This document shows positions 8,068-28,863 of a DNA stretch of 35,302 nt, in pieces. The notes beneath the pieces were generated by a model. It saw nothing but the letters and a program-made list of their open reading frames with translations, was not told the DNA's origin and did no database searches. The translations under genes and the position numbers were made by a program. This DNA comes from Kiritimatiellia bacterium (GTDB lineage: Bacteria > Verrucomicrobiota > Kiritimatiellia > CAIQIC01 > Lenti-01): contig JAFXQI010000020.1 of the NCBI GenBank assembly GCA_017527155.1, forward strand, positions 1-35,302, given 5' to 3'. Within the stretch, counting starts at the first letter, position 1; each line of letters starts with the position of its first letter.

Positions 8068-8129
8068 ACTCGCGATATCAAGGAAAACCAATCGAAATCA
8101 CCCGGTTTCCATCCATCTCCCCCTCCATG
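8068..8129 (+). repeat. GATATC/ATG dispersed element, copy 2
   Basis: The core GATATC starts at 8074 and an ATG at 8127, 53 nt later. GGAAA can pair with TTTCC. The ATG opens a 17-codon frame whose TGA overlaps the helicase start codon as ATGA. Confidence 0.7.
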
Positions 8130-8140
8130 AAAAACACCCG

Positions 8141-8169
8141 TTCCCCCCGGCCCTCCCATCTGCTACAAT
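8141..8169 (+). promoter_or_regulatory. Promoter of helicase gene, leaderless type
   Basis: A weak -35 (TTCCCC, 8141-8146), a 17-nt spacer and TACAAT (8164-8169), then 7 nt to the ATG at 8177. Confidence 0.55.
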
Positions 8170-8176
8170 CGCCCCC

Positions 8177-10180
8177 ATGACCACCGACCTCCTCGCCGAA
8201 CTCAACGACCAGCAGCGCGCCGCCGTAACCGCCCCCGACGGCCCGGCCCTCGTCATCGCCGCCGCCGGCACCGGCAAGACCCGCACCCTGACCCACCGCG
8301 TCGCCTGGCTCGTCCAGGAACACGACGTCCGCCCCTGGCAGATCCTCCTGCTGACCTTCACCAACCGCGCCGCCCGCGAGATGCTCGAACGCGCCGGCCA
8401 GCTCCTCCGCGGCGGCATTGAATCCATCTGGGGCGGCACCTTCCACTCCGTCGCCAACCGCATGCTCCGCCACCACGCCGAACGCCTCGGCTACGACCGC
8501 TCCTTCGCGATCCTCGACGAAGACGATTCCGCCCGCCTCCTCAAGCAGTGCATCGCCGAACTCGGCCTCTCGGGCAAGGACCGCAAATTCCCGAAACCCG
8601 ACGTCCTGCACGGCCTCTTCGGCCTCGCCGCGAGCCGCGAAGCCGACCTCCGCGAGACCCTCGAAAACCGCTTCACGTCCCCCGACGCCGACATCGACGG
8701 CATGCTCAAGGTCCACGACCTCTACGAGCGCCGCAAGCGCGACATCCAGGGCATGGACTTCGACGACCTGCTCGTCAACGGCCTGCGCCTCCTCCGCGAG
8801 TGCCCGGACGTCGCCGAACAGTACGGCCGCACCTTCCGCCACGTCCTCGTCGACGAATACCAGGACACCTCGCGCATCCAGTCCGACTTCGTGGACCTCC
8901 TCGCCTCCGCGCACGACAACCTGATGGCGGTCGGCGACGACTTCCAGAGCATCTACTCCTGGCGCGGCGCCGACATCGACAACTTCCTCGACTTCTCCTC
9001 CCGCCATCCCGCCGCGCGCGTCTACAAGCTCGAGCAGAACTACCGCAGCGTCCCCGGCGTCCTCGACGTCGCCAACGACGTCATCGCCGGCAACAAGGAC
9101 CAGTACCAGAAGACCCTCGTCCCCCACCGCACCGGCGACGCCAAGCCCGTCCTCGTGCAGCTCTCCGACGGCCGCCACCAGGCCCGCTACGTCGTCGAAC
9201 AGGCCATGCGCCTGATTGAATCCGGCACCGCCCGCCCCGGCGAAATCGCCGTCCTCTACCGCTCCCACTTCCACGCCATGGAGCTCCAGCTCGAACTCGC
9301 GCGCGCCCAGATGCCCTACACCGTCGTCTCCGGCGTCCGCTTCTTCGAGCAGGCCCACATCAAGGACGTCGTCGCGCCCCTCCGCCTCGCCTCCAACCCC
9401 GCCGACGGCCTCGCCTTCGCCCGCTGGATGGAACTCCTCCCCAAGGTCGGCCCCAAGCGCGCCCAATCCATGTGGGCCAAGCTCGGCGGCCGCCTCGACC
9501 TGCGCGACTTCGAATCCCGCGCCTCCCTCTCCGACCTCCTGCCCGCCGACGCCCGCGGCGCCTGGTGCGCCCTCGAATCGGCCCTCTTCCCGGCGGGCGA
9601 CACGGCCCTGCTCGACCGCCCCGACAAACTCGTCGAAACCTTCGTCAAGAACTTCTACGCCGACATCATCGACGCCACCTTCGACAACCCCCGCTCCCGC
9701 CAGGACGACATCCTGGAACTGTGCACCTTCGCGGCCAAATACCCCACCACCGCGGGATTTCTGGAAGAGATGGCCCTTCTGACCAACGTCGACGCCACCG
9801 GCCAGCAGGTCCCCGACACCCGCGACGCCGAACCCGCCGACACCCTCCGCCTGACAACCGTCCACCAGGCCAAGGGGCTCGAATGGAAGGCGGTGTTCGT
9901 CCTCTGGATGGTGCACGGCATGTTCCCGTCCGCGCGGGCCCTCGACGAACCCGGCACGATGGCCGAAGAGCGCCGCCTCTTCTACGTCGCCGTGACCCGC
10001 GCGAAAGACCGCCTCTGGCTGTGCTCCCCGAAGATGCGCCGCACGGGCGGCCCCGGCGGCGGCGACCTCCAGTACTGCGCCCCCTCCGCCTTCATCGAAG
10101 AAATCGACCCGCGCAAACTCGCCATCGACCGCCCCGTCACCCCCGCCCCCGCCTGGCACGGTTCGGACAAATGGTGGTAG
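8177..10180 (+). CDS. UvrD/PcrA/Rep-family SF1A DNA helicase
   Basis: A 667-residue 3'-5' superfamily 1A helicase. The motifs appear in order: Q motif LNDQQRAAV; Walker A AAAGTGKTRTLTHR (about 33-46); motif Ia LTFTNRAAREM; Walker B VDEYQDTS (about 233-240); motif III VGDDFQSIYSWRGA; motif IV NYRS; motif V TVHQAKGLEW (about 558-567); motif VI FYVAVTRAKDRL. Such helicases act in excision repair, replication restart or recombination. At 667 residues and without an obvious C-terminal tudor-like domain it is shorter than PcrA, so assignment to uvrD, pcrA or rep is not justified. Apparently monocistronic. Confidence 0.93.
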   Translation: MTTDLLAELNDQQRAAVTAPDGPALVIAAAGTGKTRTLTHRVAWLVQEHDVRPWQILLLTFTNRAAREMLERAGQLLRGGIESIWGGTFHSVANRMLRHHAERLGYDRSFAILDEDDSARLLKQCIAELGLSGKDRKFPKPDVLHGLFGLAASREADLRETLENRFTSPDADIDGMLKVHDLYERRKRDIQGMDFDDLLVNGLRLLRECPDVAEQYGRTFRHVLVDEYQDTSRIQSDFVDLLASAHDNLMAVGDDFQSIYSWRGADIDNFLDFSSRHPAARVYKLEQNYRSVPGVLDVANDVIAGNKDQYQKTLVPHRTGDAKPVLVQLSDGRHQARYVVEQAMRLIESGTARPGEIAVLYRSHFHAMELQLELARAQMPYTVVSGVRFFEQAHIKDVVAPLRLASNPADGLAFARWMELLPKVGPKRAQSMWAKLGGRLDLRDFESRASLSDLLPADARGAWCALESALFPAGDTALLDRPDKLVETFVKNFYADIIDATFDNPRSRQDDILELCTFAAKYPTTAGFLEEMALLTNVDATGQQVPDTRDAEPADTLRLTTVHQAKGLEWKAVFVLWMVHGMFPSARALDEPGTMAEERRLFYVAVTRAKDRLWLCSPKMRRTGGPGGGDLQYCAPSAFIEEIDPRKLAIDRPVTPAPAWHGSDKWW

Positions 10181-10552: not shown

Positions 10553-11104
10553 GAGCCAATGGATGGACATGCCCATTGGAGTTGTCAGGCGAAAACCTTG
10601 CGATTCCCCTTGCGCCGGGATGGGTAGGGCGGGCAGTCCCTGCCCGCCGGAACCCGTCATGCCGAAGGACGGCGCCAGAGATGCGCGGAGGTCGGTTTTC
10701 CCTGGGTTCCGACCGGATTGCATCCGCACATCCAACGACATCCAATGGCACGTTCCGGCTTCCGGCGGCGAGGGGACTCGCCGCCCTCCGGCTTCGCACG
10801 GACGAAATCACAAGTTTTTGCCTAACAACTCCCATGCATTCCAGCGGCAAGTGGACGGGCGGGGGTCCCGTATCCCCGGTGTCTGGCCCCACGACTGGAA
10901 AAACCGGTTCGGATTCGCATTCGCCCCGCCCCAACGCGAACGCCTTCCTCCGGTTCGCGCACCGGAAAATGAACAGCCAAGGGCCGGGGCTGTGCATAAC
11001 TTGTGGGTTTTTCGGCCCCCATTGGCGGGTCGCTCTTCTGTAATTCATTGCAAAGCCGGAGGTTACAAGGAAAAAACAAATCCGCCTCTTGCCTATTGAC
11101 AAGT

Positions 11105-11150
11105 GTGGGGGAAAGTGGGAGAAAGTGGGGCGTCAGGAAAGCCAAGTGGG
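11105..11150 (+). promoter_or_regulatory. MraZ operator (mraZ box)
   Basis: GTGGG occurs at 11105, 11115 and 11125 with an exact 10-bp period, preceded by AAA in the second and third copies. A fourth GTGGG at 11146 forms the start codon of mraZ itself. MraZ is known to bind short direct repeats of this kind upstream of dcw clusters, so this is a probable autoregulatory site. Confidence 0.75.
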
Positions 11151-11625
11151 AACCAACGACACATTCGATCTGGACGAGCTGTTGAACGCGGGAGCGTTCG
11201 TCGGCAGCCATACCCACTCGCTGGATGGCAAGAAGCGGCTGACCATCCCTTCGGAGTGGCGCGAGGCGACGGGCGGAATGCCCGTGTTCGTGCTCAAGGG
11301 CGTGGATCAGCCGTGCCTGTATGTTTTCACCGCGCGCGACATGAAGGCCCGGCTGGACAAGATCCGGTCGATCTCCGTCGCCAACGCGAAAGCCCAGCAG
11401 TTCATCCGCAGCATCTTCTCCTGCGCGGACCGGCTGGAAATCGATGCCGCCGGGCGCATCCGCGTGAGCGACCGGTTGCTGGAATGGGCGGGCATCACGG
11501 GGCAGGTGGAGCTGGTCGGCGTGGGCGGCCGTTTCGAATTATGGAGTCCGGAGCAATGGAACAAGCAGAACTCGCAACTCGATCCTCAATCCTTCGCGGA
11601 AGCGGCAGCCTCCATCGGATTCTAG
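11146..11625 (+). CDS. mraZ: Transcriptional regulator MraZ
   Basis: A 159-residue MraZ with two AbrB-like half-domains. The first contains HSLDGKKRLTIPSEWR (about 24-39) and the second CADRLEIDAAGRIRVS (about 94-109). MraZ forms a ring that binds repeated GTGGG sites upstream of the division and cell-wall cluster and usually represses it. The start is taken as GTG at 11146 because AGGAAAG lies 6 nt upstream and the protein then begins just before the domain. A TTG at 11089 would add a tail encoded by the operator. The gene overlaps the next one by 70 nt. Confidence 0.9.
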   Translation: MGTNDTFDLDELLNAGAFVGSHTHSLDGKKRLTIPSEWREATGGMPVFVLKGVDQPCLYVFTARDMKARLDKIRSISVANAKAQQFIRSIFSCADRLEIDAAGRIRVSDRLLEWAGITGQVELVGVGGRFELWSPEQWNKQNSQLDPQSFAEAAASIGF

Positions 11626-12236
11626 ACAGCCTGGGCCGTTTCTTCCTCGGCATCGGCGGCGACTCGCCGTCCGCGGTGCGCCGCCGTCCGGCTTCGGACC
11701 GCTGGTGGGACCGCGAAGAGGATGACGTGCCGCCGTCGGCCGGCTCCCGGGCGGATGCCATCCCGATGGTCCTGGGGGAGCAGGCGCGCCTGTTCGACGA
11801 CGAAGGCCAGGTGGCGGTGTCGCTGCCGGAGGCGCGTCCGGCGGAAGCGGCGCGCCCGGCGCCGCGCCGCGCGGCCCCGCGGGTCGTGCCGAACACGGTG
11901 GTGTCGGCGCAGACGCGCGTGAACGGCAAGATCATGGGCATCACGGTGACGCGCGCGGCGACGTTGGACGCGCCGGTCGCCCGCACGGCGGCGGTGGCGA
12001 AGGCCCCCGCGGCGGCGGTGGCGCAAAGCCGGGCGATCGCACGGCACCTGGTGATGAGCCGATCCCTTTACAGCGGTCCGGAGGAGACGCGGCGGTTTTC
12101 CGTTCCCCGCCGCGCTCTCCGGCCGCATTTCCAGTTGTTCGAAGGCGCCGAGGCGATCGTGGAAGACGACCGCGGCGTCATCCGCCTGAACCAGCGCGAA
12201 CTGCGCACGCAGCGCGGCCAGGTCTGGTTCGTCTGA
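11556..12236 (+). CDS. Unknown protein between mraZ and rsmH
   Basis: A 226-residue protein that I do not recognise. The N-terminus (residues about 20-35, RILDSLGRFFLGIGG) could form an amphipathic or short hydrophobic helix. The middle is rich in Ala, Pro and Arg. The end (FQLFEGAEAIVEDDRGVIRLNQRELRTQRGQVWFV, written here as landmarks FQLFEG and GQVWFV) looks like a small folded beta segment. It overlaps the end of mraZ and stops 20 nt before rsmH, so it is part of the operon and perhaps acts in cell division. The start could also be ATG at 11541. Confidence 0.6.
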   Translation: MEQAELATRSSILRGSGSLHRILDSLGRFFLGIGGDSPSAVRRRPASDRWWDREEDDVPPSAGSRADAIPMVLGEQARLFDDEGQVAVSLPEARPAEAARPAPRRAAPRVVPNTVVSAQTRVNGKIMGITVTRAATLDAPVARTAAVAKAPAAAVAQSRAIARHLVMSRSLYSGPEETRRFSVPRRALRPHFQLFEGAEAIVEDDRGVIRLNQRELRTQRGQVWFV

Positions 12237-12256
12237 GGGGGCGGGGGGAGGCCATC

Positions 12257-13210
12257 GTGGAGTCGCCGGCGCCGCACATCCCGGTATTGCTGCGCGAGAC
12301 GGTGGAGCGCCTGGTGCCCGCGGGGGGCGCGGCCTCCGGCGCGTGGTACATCGACGGCACCGCCGGCGCGGGCGGGCATTCGGTGGCGATTCTCGACGCG
12401 GCGGGCCCCGGCGCCCGCCTGCTGGCGCTCGACCGGGACGCGGACGCGCTGGCGCTGGCCTCGGCCCGCCTGGCCCCCTACGGGGAGCGCGCGGTCGTGG
12501 TGCGGTCGGAGTTTTCGGAGATGGCGGACGTGGCGCGCCGGATGGGAATCGGTCCGGTGGTCGGCGTTTTGCTGGATTTGGGCGTCTCGAGCATGCAGCT
12601 GGACCGGCCGGAGCGCGGGTTCGGGTTCATGCACGACGGCCCGCTCGACATGCGCATGGACGACCGTCAGGCGGAGACGGCGGAGACGCTCCTCGCGCGC
12701 CTGGACGAGGCGGAACTGGCGCGGATTTTGCGCGAGTACGGCGAGGAGCCGGCGGCACGGCGCATCGCGCGCGCGGTCGTCGAAGCCCGCGAAGCGGGGC
12801 GCCTCCCAGCGACGACGGCGGAGCTGGCGGACCTCGTGTCGCGCGCCAAGGGCGGGCGCCGCGGGCGCATCCACCCGGCGACGCAGACCTTCCAGGCGCT
12901 GCGCATCGCGGTCAACGGCGAACTCGGCGCGCTGGACCGCGCGCTCCCGGCGGCGCTGGACCTGCTGGCACCCGGCGGGCGCCTGGCGGTCATCAGCTTC
13001 CACAGCCTGGAAGACCGCCGCGTGAAACATTTCATGGCGGCCCACGAGGGCCGCATGGAGTCGCTGCCGATGGGCGGCGAACGCTGGTGCGGGCAGCGGC
13101 CCCGCGGCCGGCGGCTGGACCGCCGCGCCGTCACGGCCGGCGAAGGGGAATCCGCGTGCAACCCGCGCGCGCGGTCGGCGAAACTGCGGGTGATCGAAAG
13201 GATGGACTGA
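12257..13210 (+). CDS. rsmH: 16S rRNA (cytosine-1402-N4)-methyltransferase
   Basis: A 317-residue RsmH (MraW). It methylates N4 of C1402 in the 16S rRNA P site, using S-adenosylmethionine. Visible family blocks are HIPVLLRETVERL, the SAM-binding DGTAGAGGHS (about 34-43) and LALDRDADAL, then LLDLGVSSMQLDRPERGFGF, and near the end ISFHSLEDRRVKHF. The start is GTG at 12257 with a GGGGAGG ribosome-binding site. The position between mraZ and ftsL is the classic dcw order. Confidence 0.96.
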   Translation: MESPAPHIPVLLRETVERLVPAGGAASGAWYIDGTAGAGGHSVAILDAAGPGARLLALDRDADALALASARLAPYGERAVVVRSEFSEMADVARRMGIGPVVGVLLDLGVSSMQLDRPERGFGFMHDGPLDMRMDDRQAETAETLLARLDEAELARILREYGEEPAARRIARAVVEAREAGRLPATTAELADLVSRAKGGRRGRIHPATQTFQALRIAVNGELGALDRALPAALDLLAPGGRLAVISFHSLEDRRVKHFMAAHEGRMESLPMGGERWCGQRPRGRRLDRRAVTAGEGESACNPRARSAKLRVIERMD

Positions 13211-13211
13211 C

Positions 13212-13556
13212 ATGGCGAACAAGAACAGGCGCAACCACTCCAAGGGCGGTTCGACGGCGATGGTGCGGGGCGTGGCGCTCGGCGTGGTCTCGCTGCTGCT
13301 CGTGCTGCTCTACCTCGGCATTTCCAACAACTGCGAGGCGCTCGGACGCCAGATCAAGCTCGCGGAGCAGGAGAAGGCGGAGCTGCTCAAGCAGGTCGCC
13401 ACCGAGGAGCAGAACTGGGCCCAGGCGCGCTCGATCCGCAACATGGAAGCGCTGATGGCGCAGTACCGCATCGAGATGGACTGGCCCGCGGAAAAGGACA
13501 TCATCCGCCTCCACGCCGCCCGACCCGACCGGGCCGTGGAGTACGCGCGCCGCTGA
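13212..13556 (+). CDS. FtsL-like cell-division protein
   Basis: A 114-residue bitopic protein. A basic cytoplasmic N-terminus is followed by one membrane segment (about 20-38, ALGVVSLLLVLLYLGIS) and a predicted coiled coil (about 42-85, rich in Glu, Lys and Leu). This layout fits FtsL/FtsB-type divisome proteins, which link FtsQ to FtsW/FtsI, and so does the gene position between rsmH and ftsI. FtsL sequences diverge strongly, so the call rests on topology and context. It begins one base after the rsmH stop. Confidence 0.72.
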   Translation: MANKNRRNHSKGGSTAMVRGVALGVVSLLLVLLYLGISNNCEALGRQIKLAEQEKAELLKQVATEEQNWAQARSIRNMEALMAQYRIEMDWPAEKDIIRLHAARPDRAVEYARR

Positions 13557-13565
13557 CGGCCGGCA

Positions 13566-13750
13566 TTCTCGCGCGGAGTCGCGGAGACGCGGAGCACCCA
13601 CGAAGGAAAGAGGCCTCCCTTGCACCGTGTTCCCCTTTTTGACCGGGGCCTCCCTTCCCCTCTCCCCGCTCCCCCTCTCCGCGCCTCCGCGTCTCCGCGC
13701 GAGGTTTCCTTTCTTCTCCGCGCCTCTGCCTCTCTGCGCCTCTGCGTGAG
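13566..13750. repeat. Palindromic GCGGAGACGCGGAG-type repeat
   Basis: The left arm (about 13568-13593) pairs imperfectly with 13675-13703. A second right-hand arm (about 13716-13747) has the CTCTGCG...TCTGCGTGAG form seen again at 21337-21553. The element fills most of the gap between ftsL and ftsI inside the dcw operon and could form a long hairpin in the mRNA. Confidence 0.7.
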
Positions 13751-13759
13751 TGTTTCCCC

Positions 13760-15535
13760 ATGACCGACAGCGGCTACAGGTGGAAGAGCATCCTCGTCTC
13801 GCTCGGCGTGATGGCGATCTGGCTGGGGCTCTTCGTGCGTCTCGGGTGGCTGCACCTCGGGCCGAACACCTCCCTCAAGGCCAAGGTCGAACGACTCCAC
13901 CATCTCGACATGGAGCTGACCAGCCGCCGCGGGCGCATCTTCGACCGCCGCGGCAACCTCCTCGCGCAGGACCTGCCGACCAAGGACATCCACATCGACC
14001 CCAAGGTGCTGCAGAGCAACCGCACCACGCGCATCGTGTCGGTCCATCTCGAGCGCCTCCTCGGCGTCCCGCGCGCCGAAACCCTCGCCCGCGCCAACAA
14101 GCCCAACCGCCGCGACGAAACCATCGCCCGGAACCTCACCGACGCCGAAGCCGGCAAGGTGCTGCGCCTGCGGATGCCCGGCGTCTTCGCGCGCTCGTCC
14201 GAAAAGCGCCACTACCCGCTGGAAAACGAAGCCTGCCACGTCATCGGCTTCTCCAACGCCGAAGGCGTCGGCAGCGCCGGCATCGAGCAGCGCTACGACG
14301 ACATGCTCCAGGGCCGCAGCGGCCTGCGCAAGAGCCAGCGCGACGGCCGCCACCGCGAACTCTACACCCGCCGCACCCTCGAAATCCTCCCCGAGGCCGG
14401 AGCCGACGTCCACCTCACGCTCGACCAGACCATCCAGCACTACGCCGAACGCGGCATGGACCACGCCATCGCCGAGTACCACTGCGACGCCGCCTGGACC
14501 ATCGTAGAAGACGTCCGCACCGGCCAGATCCTCGCGATGGCCTGCCGCCCCGCCTACGACCTCAACGCCTACCCGGCCAGCACCGCCGAACAGCGCCGCA
14601 ACCGCGCCGTCTCCGTCAACTACGAGCCCGGGTCCGTCTTCAAGACCCTCACCGTCGCCGCCGGCATCAACGAAGGCCTCATCGCCACCAACGACGTCTT
14701 CGACTGCGAGATGGGCCGCTGGACCTACCTCGGCCGTCCCCTCAAGGACTTCCATCCCTACGGCGAACTCGACGTCACCGGCATCCTCCGCAAATCCTCC
14801 AACGTCGGCGCCGCCAAGATCGCCGTCATGGTCGGCGAGAAGAAGCTCGACACCTACCTGCGTGCCTTCGGCATCGGCCGCCGCACCGGCATCGAACTGC
14901 CCGGCGAGGAAGCCGGCCTGCTCGCCCCCGTCAACCGCTGGAGCAAGCTCGACATCACCCGCATCGCCATGGGCCACACCGTCGCCGTCACCGCGCTGCA
15001 GATCCTCAACGCCCTCTGCTGCATCGGCAACGACGGCATCCTCATGCAGCCCTACATCGTCTCCAAGGTCGTCGACGCCAACGGCACCGTCCTCGCCGAG
15101 CACCGCCCGCGAGCCGTCGGCCGCCCCATCACCGAACGCACGGCGCGGCTGATGCGCGAGATGCTCGTCTCCGTCACCCAGCCCGGCGGCACCGGCACGC
15201 GCGCCGCCATCGAAGGCTACGCCATCGCCGGCAAGACAGGCAGCGCCGAAAAACTCGAGAACGGCCACTACAGCAAGACCAAGAACATGGCCTCCTTCAT
15301 GGGCCTGATTCCCGCCGACAAGCCGCAGATCGGCATCGTCGTCGTCCTCGACAACCCCCATCCGCTCCGTACCGGCGGCGTCAGCGCCGCCCCCGTCTTC
15401 CGCTGCATCGCCGAACCCGTCGTCCACTACCTCGACATCCGCCCCGCCGACGCCTCCGACACCCTCCATTACGTTCCCGCCCCCGACGGCGAAGGCTGGG
15501 AACCCGCCCCCGAAGGCGCCGTCGACGTCCCGTGA
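13760..15535 (+). CDS. ftsI: Division transpeptidase, penicillin-binding protein 3
   Basis: A 591-residue class B penicillin-binding protein, about the length of FtsI. A single N-terminal membrane segment (about 10-30) is followed by the dimerisation region with RGRIFDRRGNLLA (about 55-67) and the transpeptidase domain. Active-site motifs are SxxK in PGSVFKT (serine about 294), SxN in KSSNVG (about 346), and KTG in AGKTGSAEK (about 493). It crosslinks septal peptidoglycan. The position after ftsL and before murE supports FtsI over the elongation enzyme. No clear ribosome-binding site precedes the ATG. Confidence 0.93.
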   Translation: MTDSGYRWKSILVSLGVMAIWLGLFVRLGWLHLGPNTSLKAKVERLHHLDMELTSRRGRIFDRRGNLLAQDLPTKDIHIDPKVLQSNRTTRIVSVHLERLLGVPRAETLARANKPNRRDETIARNLTDAEAGKVLRLRMPGVFARSSEKRHYPLENEACHVIGFSNAEGVGSAGIEQRYDDMLQGRSGLRKSQRDGRHRELYTRRTLEILPEAGADVHLTLDQTIQHYAERGMDHAIAEYHCDAAWTIVEDVRTGQILAMACRPAYDLNAYPASTAEQRRNRAVSVNYEPGSVFKTLTVAAGINEGLIATNDVFDCEMGRWTYLGRPLKDFHPYGELDVTGILRKSSNVGAAKIAVMVGEKKLDTYLRAFGIGRRTGIELPGEEAGLLAPVNRWSKLDITRIAMGHTVAVTALQILNALCCIGNDGILMQPYIVSKVVDANGTVLAEHRPRAVGRPITERTARLMREMLVSVTQPGGTGTRAAIEGYAIAGKTGSAEKLENGHYSKTKNMASFMGLIPADKPQIGIVVVLDNPHPLRTGGVSAAPVFRCIAEPVVHYLDIRPADASDTLHYVPAPDGEGWEPAPEGAVDVP

Positions 15536-15546
15536 ATTCCGTTCCC

Positions 15547-17172
15547 ATGACCTCCTGGCCCCCATTCATCTCCGCCCTCTCCGCCCGCGTCCCCGGCCTC
15601 TCCGCCCCCGCCGACGGGCCCGACATCTCCGGCCTCGCCTACGACTCCCGCAAGGTCCGCCCCGGCGACCTCTTCATCGCCCTCCCCGGCGCCCGCGACG
15701 ACGGCGCCCGCTTCGTCCCAGACGCCATCCAGCGCGGTGCCGTCGCCGTCCTGCACCAAGGCGCCCCTTTGCCACACGGCATCCCTGAAATCCACGTCCT
15801 CGACGCCCGCGCCGCCATGGCCGCCGCCGCCGCCGTCTTTTACGGCGACCCCACGCGCGACCTCGACGTCGTCGGCGTCACCGGAACCAACGGCAAGACC
15901 ACCGTCGCCTTCATGGTCCGCCACCTGCTGGAAGCCGCCGGTACCCCCTGCGCCCTCGTCGGCACCGTCCGCTACGAATGGGCCGGCCGCTCCGTCGCCG
16001 CCGACCGCACCACCCCCGAAGCCCCCGACCTCCAGCGCATCTTCGCCGAAGCCCGCGCCGCCGGGCAGCGCGCCGCCGTCATGGAAGTCTCCTCCCAGGG
16101 CCTCTGCGCGCGCCGCCTCGACGGCGTCCGCTTCTCCGCCGCCGTCTTCACCAACCTCACGCCCGAACACCTCGACTACCACCGCGACATGGAACACTAC
16201 TATGCCGCCAAGCGTCTCCTCTTCGAGTCCTTGGAGCAGTTGCAAGATGGAGGTAGCCGTTGTCTGGTTTCCCGGCCTGGTGGGGCGAGCTCTCCGAGCG
16301 AGCCGTTCCCGCCTTCCATGCGGCTCGCACGGAGTGCTCGCCACACCATGTCGGGCCACAATGCTCCAGCCGCCGGCAACCGCCTTGCCGCCCCCGCCAT
16401 CGTCAACGCCGACGACCCCTACGGCCGCCGCCTCGCCGCCGAGCCCTGCCTCGCCGGGCGCCCCGTCCTCCGCTTCTCCATCGACGCTTCCTCCCCCGCC
16501 GAAGTCCGCGCCGGATCCGTCACCTGCGCTCCCGACGCCACCACCTTCCGCCTCCTCTCCCCGTGGGGCGATGCCGATGTCCGCCTTCCCCTCATCGGCC
16601 GCCACAACATCGCCAACGCCCTTGCCGCCGCCGCCGTCGCCGGAGCCCGCGGCATCCCCGTGGAAACCATCGCCGCCGCCCTGGCAACCATGCCGGGCGT
16701 CCCCGGACGCCTCGAACGCGTCGACGACCCCGTCGGCGGCCGCCACCTCTTCGTCGATTACGCCCACACCCCCGACGCCCTCGAAAACATCCTCCGCACC
16801 CTCCGCGAACTCGTCCGCCCGCCCGCCCGCCTCTGGTGCGTATTCGGCTGCGGCGGCGACCGCGACCCCACCAAGCGCCCCGTCATGGGCCGTATCGCCG
16901 CGGAGCTCGCCGACGCCACCGTCCTGACCAGCGACAACCCCCGCAACGAATCCCCCGACGCCATCCTCCGCGAAATCCGTTCCGGCATGGACACCCGTCC
17001 CCCGGTCGCCGTCATCCCCGACCGCCCCGCCGCCATCCGCGAAACCCTCCGCCTGGCCCGCCCCGGCGACCTCGTCGTCGTCGCCGGCAAAGGCCACGAA
17101 ACCTACCAGGAAGGCCCCCACGGCCACCGCATCCCCCTCGACGACCGCGCCCTCCTCCGCGCCGCCCTCTGA
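15547..17172 (+). CDS. murE: UDP-MurNAc-tripeptide synthetase with internal repeat insertion
   Basis: A 541-residue MurE, about 45 residues longer than usual. It adds the third amino acid to UDP-MurNAc-L-Ala-D-Glu. Motifs are GVTGTNGKTTVAF (ATP loop), TTPEAPDL, NLTPEHLDYH with the modified-lysine region YYAAKRLLFESL, VNADDPYGRR, DYAHTPDAL, and TSDNPRNESP. The DNPR form is associated with meso-diaminopimelate. Between FESL (about residue 228) and AIVNADD (about 284) lie some 55 residues, where relatives have roughly 5-10. This block is encoded by a palindromic repeat and its flanks, and the frame is preserved. GTG at 15532, overlapping the ftsI stop, is an alternative start. Confidence 0.94.
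   Translation: MTSWPPFISALSARVPGLSAPADGPDISGLAYDSRKVRPGDLFIALPGARDDGARFVPDAIQRGAVAVLHQGAPLPHGIPEIHVLDARAAMAAAAAVFYGDPTRDLDVVGVTGTNGKTTVAFMVRHLLEAAGTPCALVGTVRYEWAGRSVAADRTTPEAPDLQRIFAEARAAGQRAAVMEVSSQGLCARRLDGVRFSAAVFTNLTPEHLDYHRDMEHYYAAKRLLFESLEQLQDGGSRCLVSRPGGASSPSEPFPPSMRLARSARHTMSGHNAPAAGNRLAAPAIVNADDPYGRRLAAEPCLAGRPVLRFSIDASSPAEVRAGSVTCAPDATTFRLLSPWGDADVRLPLIGRHNIANALAAAAVAGARGIPVETIAAALATMPGVPGRLERVDDPVGGRHLFVDYAHTPDALENILRTLRELVRPPARLWCVFGCGGDRDPTKRPVMGRIAAELADATVLTSDNPRNESPDAILREIRSGMDTRPPVAVIPDRPAAIRETLRLARPGDLVVVAGKGHETYQEGPHGHRIPLDDRALLRAAL
16278..16348. repeat. Palindromic element inserted in murE
   Basis: Arm 16278-16305 pairs with 16321-16348 at 25 of 28 positions, leaving a 15-nt loop. 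The arms match the intergenic palindrome at 7924-7997. The element and its flanks are translated in frame as part of MurE. Confidence 0.88.
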
Positions 17173-18360: not shown

Positions 18361-18420
18361 AACACCCCGGGGTGGGTTCCCGTCGCGGGCCGCGGAGGAT
18401 GCCACCTCCGCCCTTTTGCG

Positions 18421-18448
18421 TTGCCACGGGCGGAAGCGCCGCTATGAT
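18421..18448 (+). promoter_or_regulatory. Promoter of secreted-protein/murU-amgK operon
   Basis: TTGCCA (18421-18426), a 16-nt spacer and TATGAT (18443-18448), then 6 nt to the ATG at 18455. Leaderless type. Confidence 0.65.
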
Positions 18449-18454
18449 GCACGC

Positions 18455-19654
18455 ATGATTCCGGTCCGCCTGTCCATCCGCATCCCCTCCGGCCGCCTTG
18501 CTGCGTTGGCCGTGTGCCTCTTCCTCGTCCCCTACCAGCCGGCGCAAGCCGCGGAGGACGAGGCGTTGCCGCCGGCCGGGATGCTGGCCGAGTCGTACGA
18601 ACCGGCGCCTGACGAGACCCGTCCGGGCTTTTTCGAGGAAGAAGGCGCCGCGCGCAGCCGGGCCGTCGCGGAAGAGAAGGGCATCGAGCTGGACACCGAC
18701 CGCATCCACGCCGAGCAATCCCGCGTCCTGCGCAACCAGGCCGCCGACCCGCAGGAAGCCCTCTACGCCTCGACGAACGCCTTCACCGAAGGGATGGACC
18801 TCTGGCACGAACGGGCCTTCCGCTGGCTGGACAACTCCGTGCGCACGCTCGACCTGTGGGGTTCCCGGGAAGACGACGGCTACTCGCCCGAAATCTCCAC
18901 CTTCGCGCTGGCCCTGCTGGGGCGCGTCGGCGGGCGCGGCGACGACGGGAATTTCGAGGCCAAGGCGCGTTTCGGCGCCGACCTGGCGCTGCCGGGCTTG
19001 CAGCACCGACTGCACATCTTCGTGGACAACCTGGGCCGCGACGAACTGCCCGGCGCCGACCTGATGAAGCGGGACGACAACGTGCGCGTCGGCGTGCACG
19101 CCATCCACGACTCGATCTGGGCCGACCACGTGGACGTCGGCGGCGGCATGCGCCTGCGCCACGGCAAGCCGGTCGGCTACGTGGACATCGACTGGGACTG
19201 GTCGACGCCGCTGGCCGGCGGCACCCTGACGTTCGTGCCGCGCGGCGTGTGGTACACGGACGACGGATTCGGCGAGGATGCCGCGTTCGGCTGGGTCCGC
19301 CGCAGCGCCGACGGCAAGACGGCCTGGCGGCTGGTATCGGCCGAAACCGCCAAGGAGACCGCCTCCGGCCTGCAGCTGGAAGAGACGGTGCAGATGGCGC
19401 TCTTCGGTTCGCGCAAGGGGCGCGGCTGGGTCTTCCGGGCGAGCCTCTTCCCGCACGTGCAGGATGGGGGGCACACCTTCATCGACGACGTCGTCCTCTC
19501 CGCCACCTGGCGCGCCGCCCTCTACCGCCGCTGGATCTTCTACACCGTCACCCCCCAGTTCGACTTCGCCGAAGAGGACCGCCACCGCCTGCATCCCTCG
19601 CTGACGATCGGCATCGAAATCCTCTTCGGAGGCGAAACCAAGGACATCATGTGA
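18455..19654 (+). CDS. Secreted, probably outer-membrane barrel-like protein
   Basis: A 399-residue protein with a signal peptide ending near AQA-AED (about residue 35). An acidic helical segment follows (about 40-110). The remainder (about 120-395) alternates short beta strands with charged turns (for example VGYVDIDWDWSTPLAGGTLT) and ends in LHPSLTIGIEILFGG, as outer-membrane barrels do. I do not recognise a named family. Its GTGA overlap with the MurU-AmgK gene implies one operon, so a role at the cell envelope is likely. Confidence 0.7.
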   Translation: MIPVRLSIRIPSGRLAALAVCLFLVPYQPAQAAEDEALPPAGMLAESYEPAPDETRPGFFEEEGAARSRAVAEEKGIELDTDRIHAEQSRVLRNQAADPQEALYASTNAFTEGMDLWHERAFRWLDNSVRTLDLWGSREDDGYSPEISTFALALLGRVGGRGDDGNFEAKARFGADLALPGLQHRLHIFVDNLGRDELPGADLMKRDDNVRVGVHAIHDSIWADHVDVGGGMRLRHGKPVGYVDIDWDWSTPLAGGTLTFVPRGVWYTDDGFGEDAAFGWVRRSADGKTAWRLVSAETAKETASGLQLEETVQMALFGSRKGRGWVFRASLFPHVQDGGHTFIDDVVLSATWRAALYRRWIFYTVTPQFDFAEEDRHRLHPSLTIGIEILFGGETKDIM

Positions 19655-21327
19655 CAACCCCGTCCGTCCCCCGCAAAGCCTTCGTCCTCGCCGCCGGACT
19701 CGGCACCCGCCTGCGCCCGCTGACCGCGGACCTGCCCAAGCCGATGCTCCCCCTGTGGGGCGTCCCGATGATCCGCCGCACGCTGGAGATGCTGCGCGAC
19801 TGGGGCGTGCGCGACGCCGTCCTGAACCTCCACCACGCGCCCGCGCCGATGATCGGATACCTGGCGGCGAATCCCGTCGACGGCCTCCGCGTCTCCTGCC
19901 TGTGGGAGCCCGAACTCCTCGGCACCGGCGGCGCCCTGCGCCAGGCGGCGGGATTCATCGGCGACGGCCCGTGCTGGCTGGTGAACGCCGACGTCTACGC
20001 GCGGCCCGACCCCGTCCCGCTCTGCCGCGAATGGGCGCGCAACCGCGCCCTCGCCGTATGCTGGCTCACCGAGGACGCCGGTCCCCGCACCGTCCGGTGC
20101 GAGCGCGGGACGATCCGCGACTTCCACGATCCGGCGCGCGGCCATGCCACCTTCTGCGGCGTGCAGATTCTCGACGCCCGCATCCTCCGCTACCTCCTCC
20201 CCGCCGGTCCCGACAGCATCATCGACGCCTACCGCCGCGCACAGGCCGACGGCCACCGCATCGCCGGCGTCCTCGAACCCGGCGCCTACTGGGCCGACAT
20301 GGGCACGCCCGCCCTTTACGTCCGGACCCACCGCGAAACCGCGGCCCTCCTCGGCCACCGCGGCGAGACCTTCACGCTGCCCGCCGCCGCCGTCTTCACC
20401 CCCGACGAACGCGCCGCCCTGCGCCGCCTGCGCACCACCGACGCCACCCCCGCCGACGTCCTGCCCCCCCGCGGCTCCTCGCGCGAATTCTTCCGCCTCC
20501 ACCCCGGCGGCGCGCCCCTCATGGCAATCCGCTGGTCCCCCGACCGCGAAGACAACCGCCTCTACGCGCCGCAGACCCGCTTCCTCGCCCGCCTCGGCGT
20601 CCCCGTTCCCCGGCTCCATCTCGACGACCCGCGCCTGCATCTCCTCGTCATGGAAGACCTCGGCACCGGCACCCTCGAAACCCTCCTCCCGGGCCTCTCT
20701 CCCTCCCGCCGCCTTGCCGTCTACCGCCGCATCCTCGCCGACGCCGTCCTCCCGCTCCACCTCCGCGGCCTGCCCGCCCTCCGCCGCTCCCGCGTGCCTG
20801 CCATGCCGCCCTTCGGCCCCGAAACCTACGCCTGGGAACACGACTACTTCCTCACCGCCTACGCCACCGGCCACGCCCGCTGGCCCGCCCGCCGCATCGC
20901 CGCCGCCCGCGACGCCCTCGCCCGCGCCGCCGCCGTCCTCCGGGACTCCCCGCACGGCCTCATCCACCGCGACCTCCAATCCAGCAACATCCTTTTCCGC
21001 GGCAAGACCGCCCCCGTCCTGATCGACTACCAAGGCATGCGCGCCGGCCCCGTCGCCTACGACCTCGCCAGCCTCCTCTGCGACCCCTACGCCGCGCTCC
21101 CCGCCGACGCCCAAGCCGCCCTCCTCCGCTACTATGCCCGCCGCCATCCCGACGGCCGCGCCATCGCCGCCGCCTTCCCCGCGGCCGCACTCCAGCGCCT
21201 CTGCCAGGCCCTCGGCGCCTACGCCACCCTTTCCCGCCGTCCCGGCATGGCCCGCTTCGCCGACTACATCCCCGCCGCCCTCGCCCAGCTCGCCCCCCAC
21301 GCCGCCGCCTTCGGGCTCCCTCTGTGA
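19651..21327 (+). CDS. MurU-AmgK fusion: muramate kinase and uridylyltransferase
   Basis: A 558-residue fusion of two cell-wall recycling activities. Residues about 8-235 form a sugar-1-phosphate nucleotidyltransferase with the signature LAAGLGTRLRPLTADLPKP, like MurU. Residues about 255-555 form an aminoglycoside-phosphotransferase-type kinase with HRDLQSSNIL (about 440) and LIDYQGMRAGPVAYDLASLL, like AmgK. In Pseudomonas these are separate adjacent genes that convert N-acetylmuramate to UDP-MurNAc, bypassing de novo synthesis and fosfomycin. The start is GTG at 19651, overlapping the upstream stop. A different hexose as substrate cannot be excluded. Confidence 0.85.
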   Translation: MTTPSVPRKAFVLAAGLGTRLRPLTADLPKPMLPLWGVPMIRRTLEMLRDWGVRDAVLNLHHAPAPMIGYLAANPVDGLRVSCLWEPELLGTGGALRQAAGFIGDGPCWLVNADVYARPDPVPLCREWARNRALAVCWLTEDAGPRTVRCERGTIRDFHDPARGHATFCGVQILDARILRYLLPAGPDSIIDAYRRAQADGHRIAGVLEPGAYWADMGTPALYVRTHRETAALLGHRGETFTLPAAAVFTPDERAALRRLRTTDATPADVLPPRGSSREFFRLHPGGAPLMAIRWSPDREDNRLYAPQTRFLARLGVPVPRLHLDDPRLHLLVMEDLGTGTLETLLPGLSPSRRLAVYRRILADAVLPLHLRGLPALRRSRVPAMPPFGPETYAWEHDYFLTAYATGHARWPARRIAAARDALARAAAVLRDSPHGLIHRDLQSSNILFRGKTAPVLIDYQGMRAGPVAYDLASLLCDPYAALPADAQAALLRYYARRHPDGRAIAAAFPAAALQRLCQALGAYATLSRRPGMARFADYIPAALAQLAPHAAAFGLPL

Positions 21328-21336
21328 AAACCTGTC

Positions 21337-21553
21337 ACGCAGAGGCGCAGAGAGGAAGAGGCGCAGAGAGAAAACGCTTCTCACGCGGAGCTGCGGAGCC
21401 GCAGAGATCCCATGTCCTGTTCAACTTGCCTGTCCTCTTCGTCCTATCCCCCTTCTTCTCTTCCCTCTCCGCGCCTCCGCGCCTCCGCGTGAGACATTTC
21501 TTCTGCCCCTCCGGGACCTCTGCCCCTCTGCTTCGCCGCGCCTCTGCGTGAGA
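21337..21553. repeat. Palindromic CACGCAGAGGCGCAGAG-type repeat
   Basis: Two left arms (about 21337-21370 and 21383-21405) pair imperfectly with two right arms (about 21465-21493 and 21519-21552), giving nested inverted repeats. The element lies between convergent genes and may act as a two-way terminator. It is related to 13566-13750. The gap of 21328-21560 holds no gene. Confidence 0.75.
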
Positions 21554-21560
21554 TTCCCCC

Positions 21561-24500
21561 CTACTCCTTTGCCCGGAAACTGAAGCGGAACACCCGCACT
21601 CCCTTCGTCTCGCCCAGCCACTCCACGGCACCCGTCTCCGCGTCGAAGCGGTAGCTCCCCGCCTCCGCCTTCTCCCAGGCCCACGCCTTGCCGTCCAGCT
21701 TCGTCGCCGTCCAGAGGTCGAACGGCGTCGTCCGGTACGCCGGATTCAGACCCACGCGCCACCCCGTCTCCGTCACCGACACCTCCTCCACCGCCGGCGC
21801 CTCGAAGTGCGCGCTTCCCGGATCCGTGAACACGGCCGCCACCGACGCCCCGGCCACGTGCGCCCCGTAGTCCTCCCCGTCCGCCTCGAACTCGTACGTC
21901 CCGTCCGGCAGCCAGAACCACAGCGACGAATCGCCCTGGTGCCCCATCCCCTCGTACCGGTACGTCCGCCCCCCGCCCAGATTCACGGCCACCACCACCG
22001 GCAGTTCCCCCGCATCCGTCGCCCACGGCACCTCCACCTCGTGCACCTCCGCCCCCGCCGCATCCACCGGCACTCCCGTCCCCTCCCGGCCGAATCCGCC
22101 GCCGATGTCCTCCCCGCCGTCGCTCCCCCGCGCCTTGACCGACCCGCCCGTGATGACCACCTCCCCCGCCGCCGGAGCCACCAGCCCGCCGCCGATGCCC
22201 GCCCCGTACTCGCCGCCGACCGCCTCCACCGTCCCCGCACGGACCTCCACCCGCCCGCTCTCCTGCAGCTTCCCGCCGCCGATGCCCGCCCCGCACTTGC
22301 CGCCGTATGCTTCCAACCGCCCCAGCCCCTGCAGTGACAGCACCGAATTCGTATCCACCCGAATCCCCGCACAGTCCTCGCCGCTCGCGATGAAGTTGTC
22401 ACCTTCCAACGTCACCTCCACCGACGCCCCTTCCAGCGCCACCGCGACCGCGTCCTTCGCATCCAGATCGACGACCAGGTTCGTCCACGTGTTCGTGAAG
22501 CTCCCGCCCGCGAACCGCACCGAATGCACCGAACTCGTCCCCGTCAGCACGTACCGTTCCGCCAGCCCCTCCACCGCGCTCCCGTCCGGCGCATACCCCG
22601 CCGTCACCCCGTTCGTCCCCACGACCACGCTCCCGTGCGTCACGTCCAGCCACAGCTCGCCGAACACCGCCCGAACCCACTTCGCGAACAGTTCCAGCGT
22701 GTCGGCGCTTGCAATCGTCTCCGCCGTCACCTCCGTCCCCGTCCCGTCCGGCCCGGTGAACCACCCGGCGAACGTCCACCCCAGCCGCTCCGGCACCGGC
22801 AGCGCATCGCCGTAGGGCTGGCCGATGACGACATCCATCCAGTCGTCCTCGCCCAGCGCGACCTGGATGGTCTCCGGCGGCACGCCGACCTTGTTCCACC
22901 AGGCCGGATCGGTCGCGATGGGCGCGTTGTAGTCGAAGACGATGGTCGCCGCCGCATCGATCCTCGCCCCGTCCGCCGCGTCATCGCGCACTTTTGCCCG
23001 GTAGGTCAGATACCCTTCCCCGCAGTGCGTCGCCGGGTCGTTCGGCGGCAGGAACCCGCTCCCGTCCTCCGGCCAGCCGAAGGTTCCCTTGGGATCGACG
23101 ATGCGCAGGTACCACTTGGCCTTCCCGGTCTCTTCGTCGTACTCCAGCACCGTCTTGACGCTCCGCCCCGTCCCGTTGGTCAGCGCGACGGCCGACCGCC
23201 CCCGCGCCAGCCCTTCCAGCCCGAGGTCCGTGTAGTCCCCGAAGGCGACCTCGCCCGCCTCGAACGTGCTCCAGTCCAGCGCCGGGTCCAGCGCCAGCTC
23301 GACCGTCACCTCCTGCGCGTCCGCCACGTCATCCCCGGCGTGGTTCTCGAAGAACACCGTGTAGTCCATCCACTGCCCGCGTTCCACCACGCGGTCCGCG
23401 CCCGTGCCCGCCGGCCCCCGCATCTCGTTCGGGTCCCACGACTGCTGGCTCTTGCCGTTTTCGCTGTCGTCGGACTGGTAGTCCGGCTTGTCGTCCTCGG
23501 GAATATCCTTCGGCTTGCCCACGTGGAGCGTCGCCTTCTTGCGGTAGGGGCCGGTGATGAAGTTCCCGTACGCTTTCAGCGAAACCGTGTAGGCTCCCTC
23601 CTTCAGGTACGTGTTGTGGGGATTGACCGCCGTGGAACCGGAGCCGTCCCCGAAGTCCCAGTCATAGCGCCGCGGTGCCTCGGAGAAGTCGAAGCCGGGG
23701 CCCTGGAAGTGCGCTCCCTTGGAGTTGTTGCTGAAGTCGAACCGCCCCGGTGCCATCGGGCACGAGAGCGGGCTGTAGGTGAAGTCGGGGGTGGGTCCGG
23801 TCAGCTTGATCAGGCTGGCCGAAATGTCGCCCACGTCGCCCTCGACGCCAAGCTTGAACTGGAACCAGGAAGGCAACCACTTTACATCCTCCCAATCGAT
23901 GAGATTGGCCTCCGCGTGGACTTTCGCGCCGACACTGATTCCGAGCGTGACGGGAGCGGCGGTCGAAGCGCGGATGGTGAGGTTGGCATATGGACCGAAA
24001 TCGGCACCGAAAGAAACCGTTTCGAACCATTTTAATTTGGCGCCCAGCGTGTATCCGATTTCGAGGCTCAACGCTCCCTCCACCTCCCCTTGCGGCGCGG
24101 AATAGATGGGCTGGATGCTACCAGGCGGCAGCCAATGGCTCTTTTCGCCCTCGTACCCTTCACGGCCGATGCAAATGGAAACCGTGCCGCCAAACGAGGC
24201 ATTCATTGAGCCGCGCAACGAAGCGGAGCCCTTGGCATAGACACCGGCGGTACCGTGCAAGGTCCACCCGGCAGGAAGGGGGATTCCTCCGGGAAATTCG
24301 ACACCTTCCCTGAAATTGCGGCTGTAGGAAGCGGAGCCTTCGAGTGAACACCACGCCTCCAGCGTCAAGGAACCTTTCAAGGCCCAATATCCGTAATTGC
24401 GGCCGTTTCGCATTTCCTGCACGAACTCGAAGCCCAGCCCCGGCGAAACATTCACTCCGCCGCGGAATCCGCCTTCGACAATCAGATTGTGGGGCTCCCG

Positions 24501-27500
24501 TGCGGAACGAGCGGCGGGATTGGCCTCTTCCCCCCCAAAATCAATCGGCACGTACACGCTCATCCCCACCTGCTGGTAGATGTCGCTCCAATCCGCATAT
24601 TCCGTCTCCAGAACCCACTTCCCGCCCTCCTTCGCGGCGGAGAGCACGCGGCGGCAGAACCACTCCTCGTTGCACTGGCCCATCAACACCATCCCGGCGG
24701 CGAGCGTCCCCGTCTCCGGTTCCCCTGCCAGCACGAGCCGCCCGTCGCTCTTTTCGAGGGCTTCCAGCGTTCCCGAGTTCGTCCCGAAGAGGATGGCTCC
24801 GTCCTGGAGGATGGTTTCGATTGCCTCTTCGACTCGCACGCAGTTTTCGTAGACGCTGGTGGTGCGCGTGCCGTCCGCCTCGGTCATGACGAGGGTGACG
24901 GTGTTCGTGCCCACGGAAGAGTAGGTCCAGGTCGGCTGCGCCTCCGTGCTGTCCACCACGCCGTCGGAGTCGAAGTCCCACTCCCAGGCGGTCGCGGAGG
25001 CGGCGCGCTCGGGATCGAGGTAGAGGAACGAGGTTTCGAGGCTCCCGAACCCGACCGACCGCGTGGGGAAGAAGAGCGGCCGCGCCGTGGAGACGAGCGC
25101 CACCACCACGTCGTCGCCCACCGCGAGAGTGACGGTGTGGTCGGGCGAGAAGGCCTCGAGCGAGTAATGCCGCACGTCGTAGGTGCCGGCGGGCAACCCG
25201 TCCAGGCTCCACGTCCCGTCCGTCTCCACGCCCACCTCGTAGGACACGCCTTCCTCCGTAATGGCCTGCACCGTCCCGTTCGTCGCGGGCGAGCCGCCGA
25301 ACGCGACCGTCCCGGAGACCCGCGCGCCCGCTTCCAGCACGAAGTCGGCCTCCAGTTCCCTCACCGTCCCGCCCAGCACGAGGTTCGAGGCGACGGCGCT
25401 GCACCACAGCCCCTGCGACTGGGCGCGGACCGTCCACGAGCCGTCGGCCAGCCCCGTGAACTCGTAGAACCCGAACCCGTCCGCCGGCACGGCGGCGGCG
25501 ACGGCGGTCTCTTCGCCATCGTACAGCGCCACCGTTCCGCCCGCCACGGCATTCCCCTCCCCGTCCAGAACGTGGCCCGAAATCCGCCCGCCCGGCACCG
25601 CGTGCAGTTCCAGCCCGTTCACGTCCGCCTGCGCGGCGACATCAACCTCGTTCGTGCTGTCCGCCGCCAGCACCGTCCCCGCATCCGGCAGGAACCGGTA
25701 CGCCCCGTCCGCCAGCCCCGCCAGCGAGAACCACCCATCCGAATCCGTCACCGCCGTCGCCGCCGCCCCGCCGTCCTCCGCCGCGATGGCCGAGATTCCC
25801 ACGCCCGCCAGCGGCGTCCGCGCCGCCGCGTCGACCAGCCGCCCGCTGATGGCGGCGCAGGGCTGCCCGTTGCGCTCCAGCAGCGACTGGGCCACGAGCG
25901 CGTGCAGGTCGGCCACCGCCGCGCCCCGCAGCGCCAGCCGCGTCGCCGCCGCGGCCACCGCCTCCCGGTAGCCCGCCACCCCGCCGAACGCCGGGAACGC
26001 CCCCGCCGCTTCCGCCTCCTCCATGTGCGCAAGACCCAGCCGGTAGCTCCCGAACGGCTGGAAGAAGAACGCCACCCGCCCCTCCTCGCCCGGCTTGAGC
26101 ACGCCCGCCGGGGCCGACGGCGCCACGCCGCCGATGTACAGCGCCGTCTCCACCGGCATCTCCCCCGCCGCCAACCCCAGCTTCGTCGTCGAATCCAGCC
26201 GCGACACCTTGAACAGCGGCATCGGCATCGCCGCATCCCCCGCATTCCGGTAGCACACGTGCGCCGTGAACACCCGCCCGTCGCGGATGCTTCCCGGCGT
26301 CTCCAGCCACGCCTCCAGCTTCGCCCCCTCCTTCACCGCGTAAATCTCCACCGCCCCCGCCAGCGCCGCCCCCGCCGCCGACACCTCCGCCGCGCCCGCC
26401 GCCGCCCCGTCCACGTCGAACGTCGCCAGCACGCGCGCGGCATCGATGCGTTCAACCGCCAACGCCTTGCGACCGCCGAGCGCCGCCGCCCCCGCGTCCA
26501 GCCCGCACCCGTAGAGCGTCAGCGCCGCCTCCCCCGCGTTCGGCACCCGCGAAGGCGAAACCGCCAGCAGCGCCGGCGACTCCGCCGATACCGTGACCTC
26601 CGCCTCCGCCGGCGCGCCGCTCCCGTTCGCGAGCGAAAGATACGCGCTCTCCCCGGCCTCCCGCGCCGGAAGCACGACCAGCCAGTTCCCGTCCGGCAGC
26701 GCCACCGCCGCCGTACCGCCGCCGTCCGCCGTCGGCATCGCCCCGTTCCCGGCCAGCACCGCGAGACTCCCCGCGCCCGCGCCGGAAACCCGCACCCAGC
26801 CGCCCGCCTCCGGCAGCCCCTCCAGCTCGTACCCCGCCGTCGCCCCTGCCCCCACCGCCACCGTGCGCGTCCCCGCCGACAGCGCGTCCAGCTTCACCTC
26901 CACCGTCCCCGCCGACCACGCCCGGTTGTTGCCGAGGTTCGCCTCGAAGAAATCCCTCGCCGGGTTCGCCTCCACCCCCACCTGCCACGCCCCCGCCGCC
27001 ACCGCCGGAATCCGCACCTTCGCCGTCATCCGCGCGCTCGCCCCCGGTTCCAGCCCGTACCCCTGCACCGCTTCCACCGCCTCCACCGACATCCCCGCCG
27101 TCCCCTCGTCCGCCCCGCGCAGGCGGATTGCGTCCCGCACCGTCCCCGACGCCACCGCCGTCCCCCGGTTCGTCACCACGTACGCCACCGTCACCTCCTC
27201 CCCCACCCGCGCGCTCGCCGGAACCGACACCGACAGCACCGCCACGTCCGCCATCGGCCCCGTCACCGTCCCCGGCACCTCGTAGATCCCGATGTCCGCG
27301 CACGCCCCCTCCGCGTTCGGCACCCCCGTGTTTTCCGCCGCCTTCACGTCCATCCGCGGCTGACCCCACGCATCCCGCTCCGGCGCGACCGAACTGTCCC
27401 CCGCGTCCACGCACGGCGAAGCCGCCGCAATGCGGAAATCCCCGCCATCCGCATCCACGAACTGCGGATCGCCCCACTTGTTCCCGTTGCTCCCCGCCTT

Positions 27501-28862: not shown

Positions 28863-28863
28863 T

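Follow-up and report, generated by a model that had tools for sequence, protein, structure and literature searches.

The question raised by this locus was whether a single gene that joins a nucleotidyltransferase to a sugar kinase serves the recycling of N-acetylmuramic acid (MurNAc), and from which source that sugar would come. The gene lies in a stretch of 35,302 nt (the whole stretch analysed, here called the window), which is contig JAFXQI010000020.1 of the Kiritimatiellia bacterium assembly GCA_017527155.1, one of the 114 contigs (C42) of a 3.2-Mb genome. A first-pass annotation, made from the sequence alone, had read the gene as MurU and AmgK, the uridylyltransferase and the anomeric kinase of the recycling route, in one polypeptide. 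The results of the present analysis indicated that the fusion is probably (rough probability 0.72) a cytosolic enzyme with two activities in MurNAc salvage, fed by the exo-muramidase NamZ rather than by the anhydro-MurNAc kinase AnmK.

The fused gene (19651..21327, + strand) was a single uninterrupted open reading frame (ORF) with a GTG start at 19651 and a stop ending at 21327, and its translation gave 558 aa. Pfam analysis showed an NTP_transferase domain at residues 9–229 (E 1.5e-18) and, in the same frame, an APH domain at residues 289–499 (E 1.1e-17). The protein consisted of a MurU-like nucleotidyltransferase domain (residues 9–229, 19675..20337, + strand), a short linker (residues 230–262, 20338..20436, + strand) and an AmgK-like anomeric sugar kinase domain (residues 263–558, 20437..21324, + strand). 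The first domain was placed by Pfam, invariant columns and the nearest solved structure (4y7t), the linker by comparison among relatives, and the third by Pfam, NCBIfam, structure 3csv and motif alignment. In most other relatives aligned, the interdomain linker was about 80–100 aa long with hexapeptide-like repeats; it was reduced in the family of the window. The signature and metal-binding residues of a sugar-1-phosphate nucleotidyltransferase were intact, with G16, G18, R20, P29, K30, D114 and D216 invariant among 14 and 27 relatives. The HRD and DxQ motifs of APH-fold kinases were also present, with H439, R440, D441, N446 and D459 invariant in the alignments of relatives. The AlphaFold2 model of the fused protein (27-row alignment) had a mean pLDDT (predicted local distance difference test) of 93 and a pTM (predicted template modelling score) of 0.83.

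The fusion was present as a single copy in the source genome, where the two other matches were nucleotidyltransferases only, and G001, another genome of the genus, carried a copy that was 98% identical. Among loci L001–L032, 26 complete ORFs were obtained, the window included, and all 26 contained both domains. Two loci (L002 and L003) were excluded as unrelated paralogues from the source genome, and four more (L011, L012, L013 and L024) as partial proteins. In a further set of 80 named loci, which were the best matches rather than an unbiased sample, both domains lay in one ORF in 79, and the exception (L085) was truncated by the contig end. One of these 80 loci (L103, CP120722.1) lay on a complete chromosome, which rules out an error of assembly or a frameshift as the origin of the fusion. 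These results confirmed that the MurU-like and AmgK-like parts are joined in one ORF, as the first-pass annotation had stated.

With profile A1, the fusion was matched at E ≤1e-50 in 91 of 116 genomes of the class Kiritimatiellia, the class being assigned by the names of the matching records. The threshold fell in a gap between 2.1e-60 (G101) and 1.1e-29 (G105), and seven more class genomes with only weak matches (1e-20 to 1e-30) were counted as negative. A match was also found in 50/56 near relatives, part of them just to other nucleotidyltransferases, and in 154/288 sampled genomes of the phylum at 1e-40, class members counted in. The named matches were labelled Kiritimatiellae, Kiritimatiellota, Lentisphaerae, Verrucomicrobia and similar, and many came from rumen and gut. 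The check by phylogenetic spread that the first-pass annotation had suggested was thereby made, and the fusion proved common in the class and present elsewhere in the phylum.

Among 20 loci outside the class, hand-picked from the phylum match list, eight had a kinase without a nearby nucleotidyltransferase, five had neighbouring or overlapping genes in the order nucleotidyltransferase then kinase, and seven had the fusion; separate, tandem and fused versions thus all occur elsewhere in the phylum. Since the tandem genes run nucleotidyltransferase then kinase, the fusion keeps the order of the tandem pair. In Sphingomonas, the phosphotransferase gene lay upstream of the nucleotidyltransferase gene, and the same order was seen in Acinetobacter and Halomonas, which fits the statement of the first-pass annotation that the genes are separate in Pseudomonas and that the order in the fusion is reversed. 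No viral relative of the fusion was confirmed, no plasmid record covered 80% of the fused protein, and no plasmid matched the kinase half by itself. Searches of an open-licence library brought up no paper that describes such a fusion.

The evidence that carried most weight for the function came from NamZ. Among 20 other loci compared, NamZ was one recurrent neighbour of the fusion, and its family was confirmed by Pfam. NamZ_N (PF07075) was found in 91/116 class genomes; fusion and NamZ occurred together in 88, were both missing in 22, and occurred alone in 3 (fusion only) and 3 (NamZ only) (Fisher 1.7e-17). Restricted to the 85 better genomes (≥90% complete and ≤5% contaminated), the corresponding counts were 65, 17, 2 and 1, and by family majority over 39 families they were 29, 7, 1 and 2 (p 1.8e-5). 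One of the six genomes of genus g21 (G081) was without both NamZ and the fusion while the other members had both, and in genus g17 three of four genomes (G031, G048 and G115) were without both while the remaining member had both; from the gene content, these cases are read as two co-losses inside single genera. In the 116-genome sample, the controls were unassociated with the fusion (NagZ-like hits, p 0.80; MurA, p 1.0). Loss of peptidoglycan was rejected as the cause of the joint loss, given the presence of MurC in 85/85 and MurA in 83/85 of the better genomes.

NamZ was also linked to the fusion by position. In 20/88 genomes from 10 families, as tallied by hand from coordinates, it immediately preceded the fusion in the same orientation, no more than about 0.6 kb away, and in two more genomes (G077 and G086) it lay within 4 kb. 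In the named loci, which overlap the 116-genome sample, NamZ was found in 12/80, and in 11/73 where more than 1.3 kb was present upstream; in 7/12 loci measured, a start codon was available that gives a 4-nt overlap with the NamZ stop. In one sediment metagenome-assembled genome (L116, contig PXDE01000358.1, 4271–7426), NamZ_N, NamZ_C, NTP_transferase and APH were encoded in one 1,052-codon frame, in which a three-fold repeated linker separated NamZ from the nucleotidyltransferase and kinase part. Since this triple fusion was seen in one such genome only, it may be a local oddity. Seen together, genes that stand apart, in tandem, fused in pairs and, in one instance, fused as three illustrate clearly how the genes of a pathway merge.

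In 21 distinct NamZ N termini from the class, no stretch reached the hydrophobicity of a signal peptide. The highest 12-residue mean was 1.88, and the residues that gave it probably precede the start, compared with 2.73 in the secreted protein of the window; the start sites were guessed, and the judgement was by hydrophobicity rather than by a signal peptide predictor. The lack of such a stretch suggests that NamZ is cytosolic in the class.

The genes that usually accompany AmgK and MurU were searched for in the own genome and in the class. AnmK (PF03702), the usual companion of AmgK and MurU, which the first-pass annotation did not mention, was not found in the own genome and was full-length in 0/116 class genomes; partial hits in 3/116 covered 66–89 of 367 positions, and two of these three passed the Pfam cut-off. 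MurQ was not found in the own genome; in the class it was over cut-off in 3/116 genomes, and numerous others gave weak hits. NagZ was not found in the own genome at 1e-20 and was over cut-off in 0/116 class genomes (32 with weaker hits), by a strict model that was over cut-off in 3/14 control genomes. AmpG was not found in the own genome at 1e-20, and the class gave 1/116, below cut-off. MurA was present in the own genome, which ruled out a MurNAc auxotrophy of the kind seen in Tannerella, and two MurC-family matches were found, the second of which is perhaps Mpl. Because the usual markers (AnmK, MurQ, AmpG and typical NagZ) were not found in the class, annotation based on them would score it as having no muramic acid recycling. 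In the absence of AnmK, the link to NamZ accounts for where AmgK and MurU would obtain free MurNAc.

For the kinase half, the two top NCBIfam models were both AmgK models (1.1e-10 and 2.3e-8), followed by homoserine kinase (1.6e-4). The best match in a single-sequence search of solved structures was 3csv (76 bits), and VIA-align of this structure gave a Z of 27.0, a root-mean-square deviation (rmsd) of 2.8 and 291 aligned residues. In a 36-row kinase tree, which contained no outgroup from another kinase family, the class fusions formed one group (98/91) and four proteobacterial kinases another.

For the nucleotidyltransferase half, the same kind of search gave Pseudomonas putida MurU (4y7t) as the best match (69.5 bits), followed by P. 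aeruginosa MurU (63.3 bits), HddC (63.2 bits), plant GMPP (61.7 bits) and LicC (33.4 bits). VIA-align of the AlphaFold2 model likewise placed 4y7t as the nearest solved structure (Z 28.2, rmsd 2.0, 218 aligned), and a profile of the nucleotidyltransferase domain only put it first with 125 bits, compared with 117 for the mannose enzymes. In a 38-row nucleotidyltransferase tree, the fusion and tandem forms (clade support 93/95) joined four proteobacterial MurU-type proteins with a support of 97/91, while GMPP, HddC, RfbA and two own paralogues fell outside; the reference set was small, and the MurU labels of the four references rest on the AmgK-like kinase adjoining each. From the nucleotidyltransferase tree, the kinase models and above all the NamZ link, MurU plus AmgK in one chain was the best-supported identity.

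Several observations weighed against this identity and against the proposed role. The NCBIfam equivalog cut-offs were missed by a wide margin on both sides: the MurU model NF045761 gave 80.6/250 bits, and the AmgK models NF045759 and NF045698 gave 41.2/550 and 33.7/500 bits. Because the MurU cut-off was missed, the nucleotidyltransferase half is called MurU-like, a sister clade rather than an equivalog member; the identification in the first-pass annotation was partly supported, with the tree, the kinase models and the NamZ link for it and these cut-offs against it. The NCBIfam model of mannose-1-phosphate guanylyltransferase (GMPP) tied with MurU (80.5 vs 80.6 bits), both far under their cut-offs, and each of the two models matched 14/14 members of alignment A1, so that sequence models alone hardly distinguish MurU from mannose enzymes. 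The whole-protein profile put GMPP structures over MurU (139 and 137 vs 128 bits), in part because this profile contains the hexapeptide-like linker, and most of the class has hexapeptide-like linkers of the kind that marks GMPP-type enzymes and sets them apart from minimal MurU. In VIA-align, GMPPB reached a Z of 27.1, only 1.1 under MurU, and with values this close the fold alone does not separate MurU from GMPP. With regard to NamZ, G028, G071 and G101 had the fusion without NamZ, and G039, G032 and G105 had NamZ without the fusion, although G032 and G105 were only 69 and 70% complete. Correction for phylogeny in the co-occurrence test went no further than the count by families and the cases inside single genera. 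In the own genome (G000), NamZ (PF07075, 201 bits) lay on contig C3 and not on the contig of the fusion, and its NamZ_C domain (PF20732), which was detected in four other NamZ scanned, was unreported at E 0.001. The fusion itself sits in the division and cell wall (dcw) cluster in this genome.

These points left four other readings to be weighed against MurNAc salvage. The kinase and the nucleotidyltransferase could serve the salvage of N-acetylglucosamine (GlcNAc) or of mixed amino sugars, giving UDP-GlcNAc from GlcNAc released by an exo-glycosidase, and the AmgK models do carry the name N-acetylmuramate/N-acetylglucosamine kinase; NamZ acting on MurNAc-GlcNAc would also release both sugars. 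The grouping of the nucleotidyltransferase with MurU and an association that involved NamZ and not the NagZ-like hits make this reading unlikely. Activation of mannose or another hexose for exopolysaccharide or glycosylation, by a GMPP-like half and an anomeric hexose kinase, would be in line with the tied models, the whole-protein profile and the linkers described above. It is nevertheless improbable, as the GMPP branches lay outside the MurU-plus-fusion clade, the domain-only profile favoured MurU, and the joint loss and operon link with NamZ would be left unexplained.

The LicC-LicA fusion that occurs in Treponema has the identical two folds in the identical order, and a phosphocholine-activating protein of this type was considered. 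LicC (1jyk) scored less than half as many bits as MurU in the single-sequence search, and the Pfam choline kinase model stayed under its cut-off (12.7/29 bits, E 0.077), which makes this reading very improbable. Heptose activation for an envelope polysaccharide, for which the closeness of the HddC structures to MurU in that search might speak, has hardly any probability: the HddC references lay outside the MurU-plus-fusion clade, and heptose activation uses a GHMP kinase, whereas the kinase half here is APH-fold and AmgK-like. When models, profiles and tree were taken together, the LicC-LicA, GMPP and HddC identities came out as less likely; the models by themselves did not decide the matter.

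If the fusion acts in MurNAc salvage, peptidoglycan fragments would be imported by some carrier, and a cytosolic NamZ would free MurNAc from them, in place of anhydro-MurNAc passing through AnmK. The C-terminal kinase would then phosphorylate MurNAc at C1 with ATP as donor, and the N-terminal nucleotidyltransferase would convert MurNAc-1-phosphate and UTP to UDP-MurNAc, which would re-enter peptidoglycan synthesis past MurA and MurB and be used by MurC. Whether the Kiritimatiellia possess a whole route of their own, with non-AmpG import, cytosolic NamZ and the AmgK-MurU fusion, without anhydro-MurNAc kinase, MurQ and typical NagZ, and in some members with all three activities in one polypeptide, is a more tentative proposal, to which we give somewhat less than even odds. 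Channelling of MurNAc-1-phosphate by the fusion, as the first-pass annotation had expected, is only possible and was not indicated; the AlphaFold2 model was of a monomer. In this way a whole class of bacteria from gut and sediment, most of them uncultured, would gain a concrete, testable route of muramic acid recycling.

Directly upstream of the fusion lay an ORF (18416..19654, + strand) whose 412-aa product resembles a signal peptide at its N terminus. The stop of this ORF overlapped the start of the fusion by 4 nt (GTGA), and the two are likely in one transcription unit. This agrees with the co-transcription of a secreted protein proposed by the first-pass annotation; the suggested link to envelope turnover was not supported: the protein had no Pfam family, and it stood beside the fusion in only 2/21 loci compared (the window and the other genome of the genus). 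The dcw genes on the + strand comprised mraZ (11089–11625), rsmH (12257–13210), an ORF in the ftsL position (13212–13556), an ftsI-type gene (13760–15535) and a murE-type Mur ligase gene (about 15619–17172), with Pfam as the evidence. These genes (11089..17172) were not seen beside the fusion in 20 other loci compared. As neither they nor the secreted neighbour accompanied the fusion in any locus compared from another genus, a functional tie to either was not supported.

The segment directly after the fusion (21328–21560) was rich in GCAGAGGCGCAGAGAGG-like repeats, which were unreported by Tandem Repeats Finder. On the − strand, 21561–29012 held a secreted-looking ORF of 2,483 aa with beta-helix, CARDB, carboxypeptidase-regulatory, PKD and DUF7619 domains. 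A diversity-generating retroelement occupied 28864–33596 (− strand), with a reverse transcriptase (28864–31161; PDB 8ub7, E 4.6e-40), an HRDC-domain ORF (31158–32123) and an ORF of FGE-sulfatase fold (32259–33596). A 142-nt template-like copy (31965–32106) was 84% identical to its counterpart at the 3' terminus of the FGE ORF (32264–32405), and 21 of the 23 differences were at adenines of the template-like copy. On the + strand, 6590–10180 was called as a UvrD-helicase ORF of 1,196 aa, in which the helicase domain began at residue 538 and the called start was probably far too early; a tandem repeat within it (7682–7954), with a 94-bp unit present in 2.9 copies, is likely intergenic.

Comparison with known systems showed that the nucleotidyltransferase half shared its fold, its signature motif and its tree clade with Pseudomonas MurU. 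In Proteobacteria, MurU is a separate gene of about 230 aa, whereas in the class it is fused ahead of the kinase, mostly with a hexapeptide-like segment after it. The kinase half resembled AmgK in its APH fold, in the motifs HRD...N and DxQ...G..YDL..LL.D and in its adjacency to a MurU-type gene. AmgK is likewise a separate gene in Proteobacteria, and the class kinases form a subfamily of their own, with HRDxQSxN and DxQGxR compared with HRDxxxxN and DFQD in the proteobacterial kinases. The NamZ of Bacillus subtilis (PF07075/PF20732) is secreted; the class NamZ belongs to the same family, but it was without a signal-peptide-like stretch, was coupled to the fusion and was once fused to it.

The anabolic recycling route of Pseudomonas and Caulobacter, as outlined in PMC5371407 and PMC13046382, runs through AnmK, MupP, AmgK and MurU. 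The last two steps are shared with the fusion, whereas AnmK is replaced in the class by NamZ as the likely MurNAc source. Tannerella forsythia has AmgK and MurU without a predicted AnmK, according to PMC7670621, and is reported to possess NamZ1 and NamZ2 (a title cited in PMC10465942), so that NamZ feeding AmgK and MurU has a precedent. The AmgK and MurU of Tannerella have also served in labelling with 2-alkyne-MurNAc (PMC13041923). This likeness in AmgK, MurU and NamZ-type exo-muramidases is accompanied by differences: T. forsythia has separate proteins, is an auxotroph lacking MurA and MurB, and also has MurK and MurQ, whereas the own genome had MurA and a single chain, and MurQ was not found there. 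Beside the missing AnmK, AmpG and typical NagZ, the new features here are a NamZ without a signal peptide, its class-wide pairing with the fusion, and the fusion itself.

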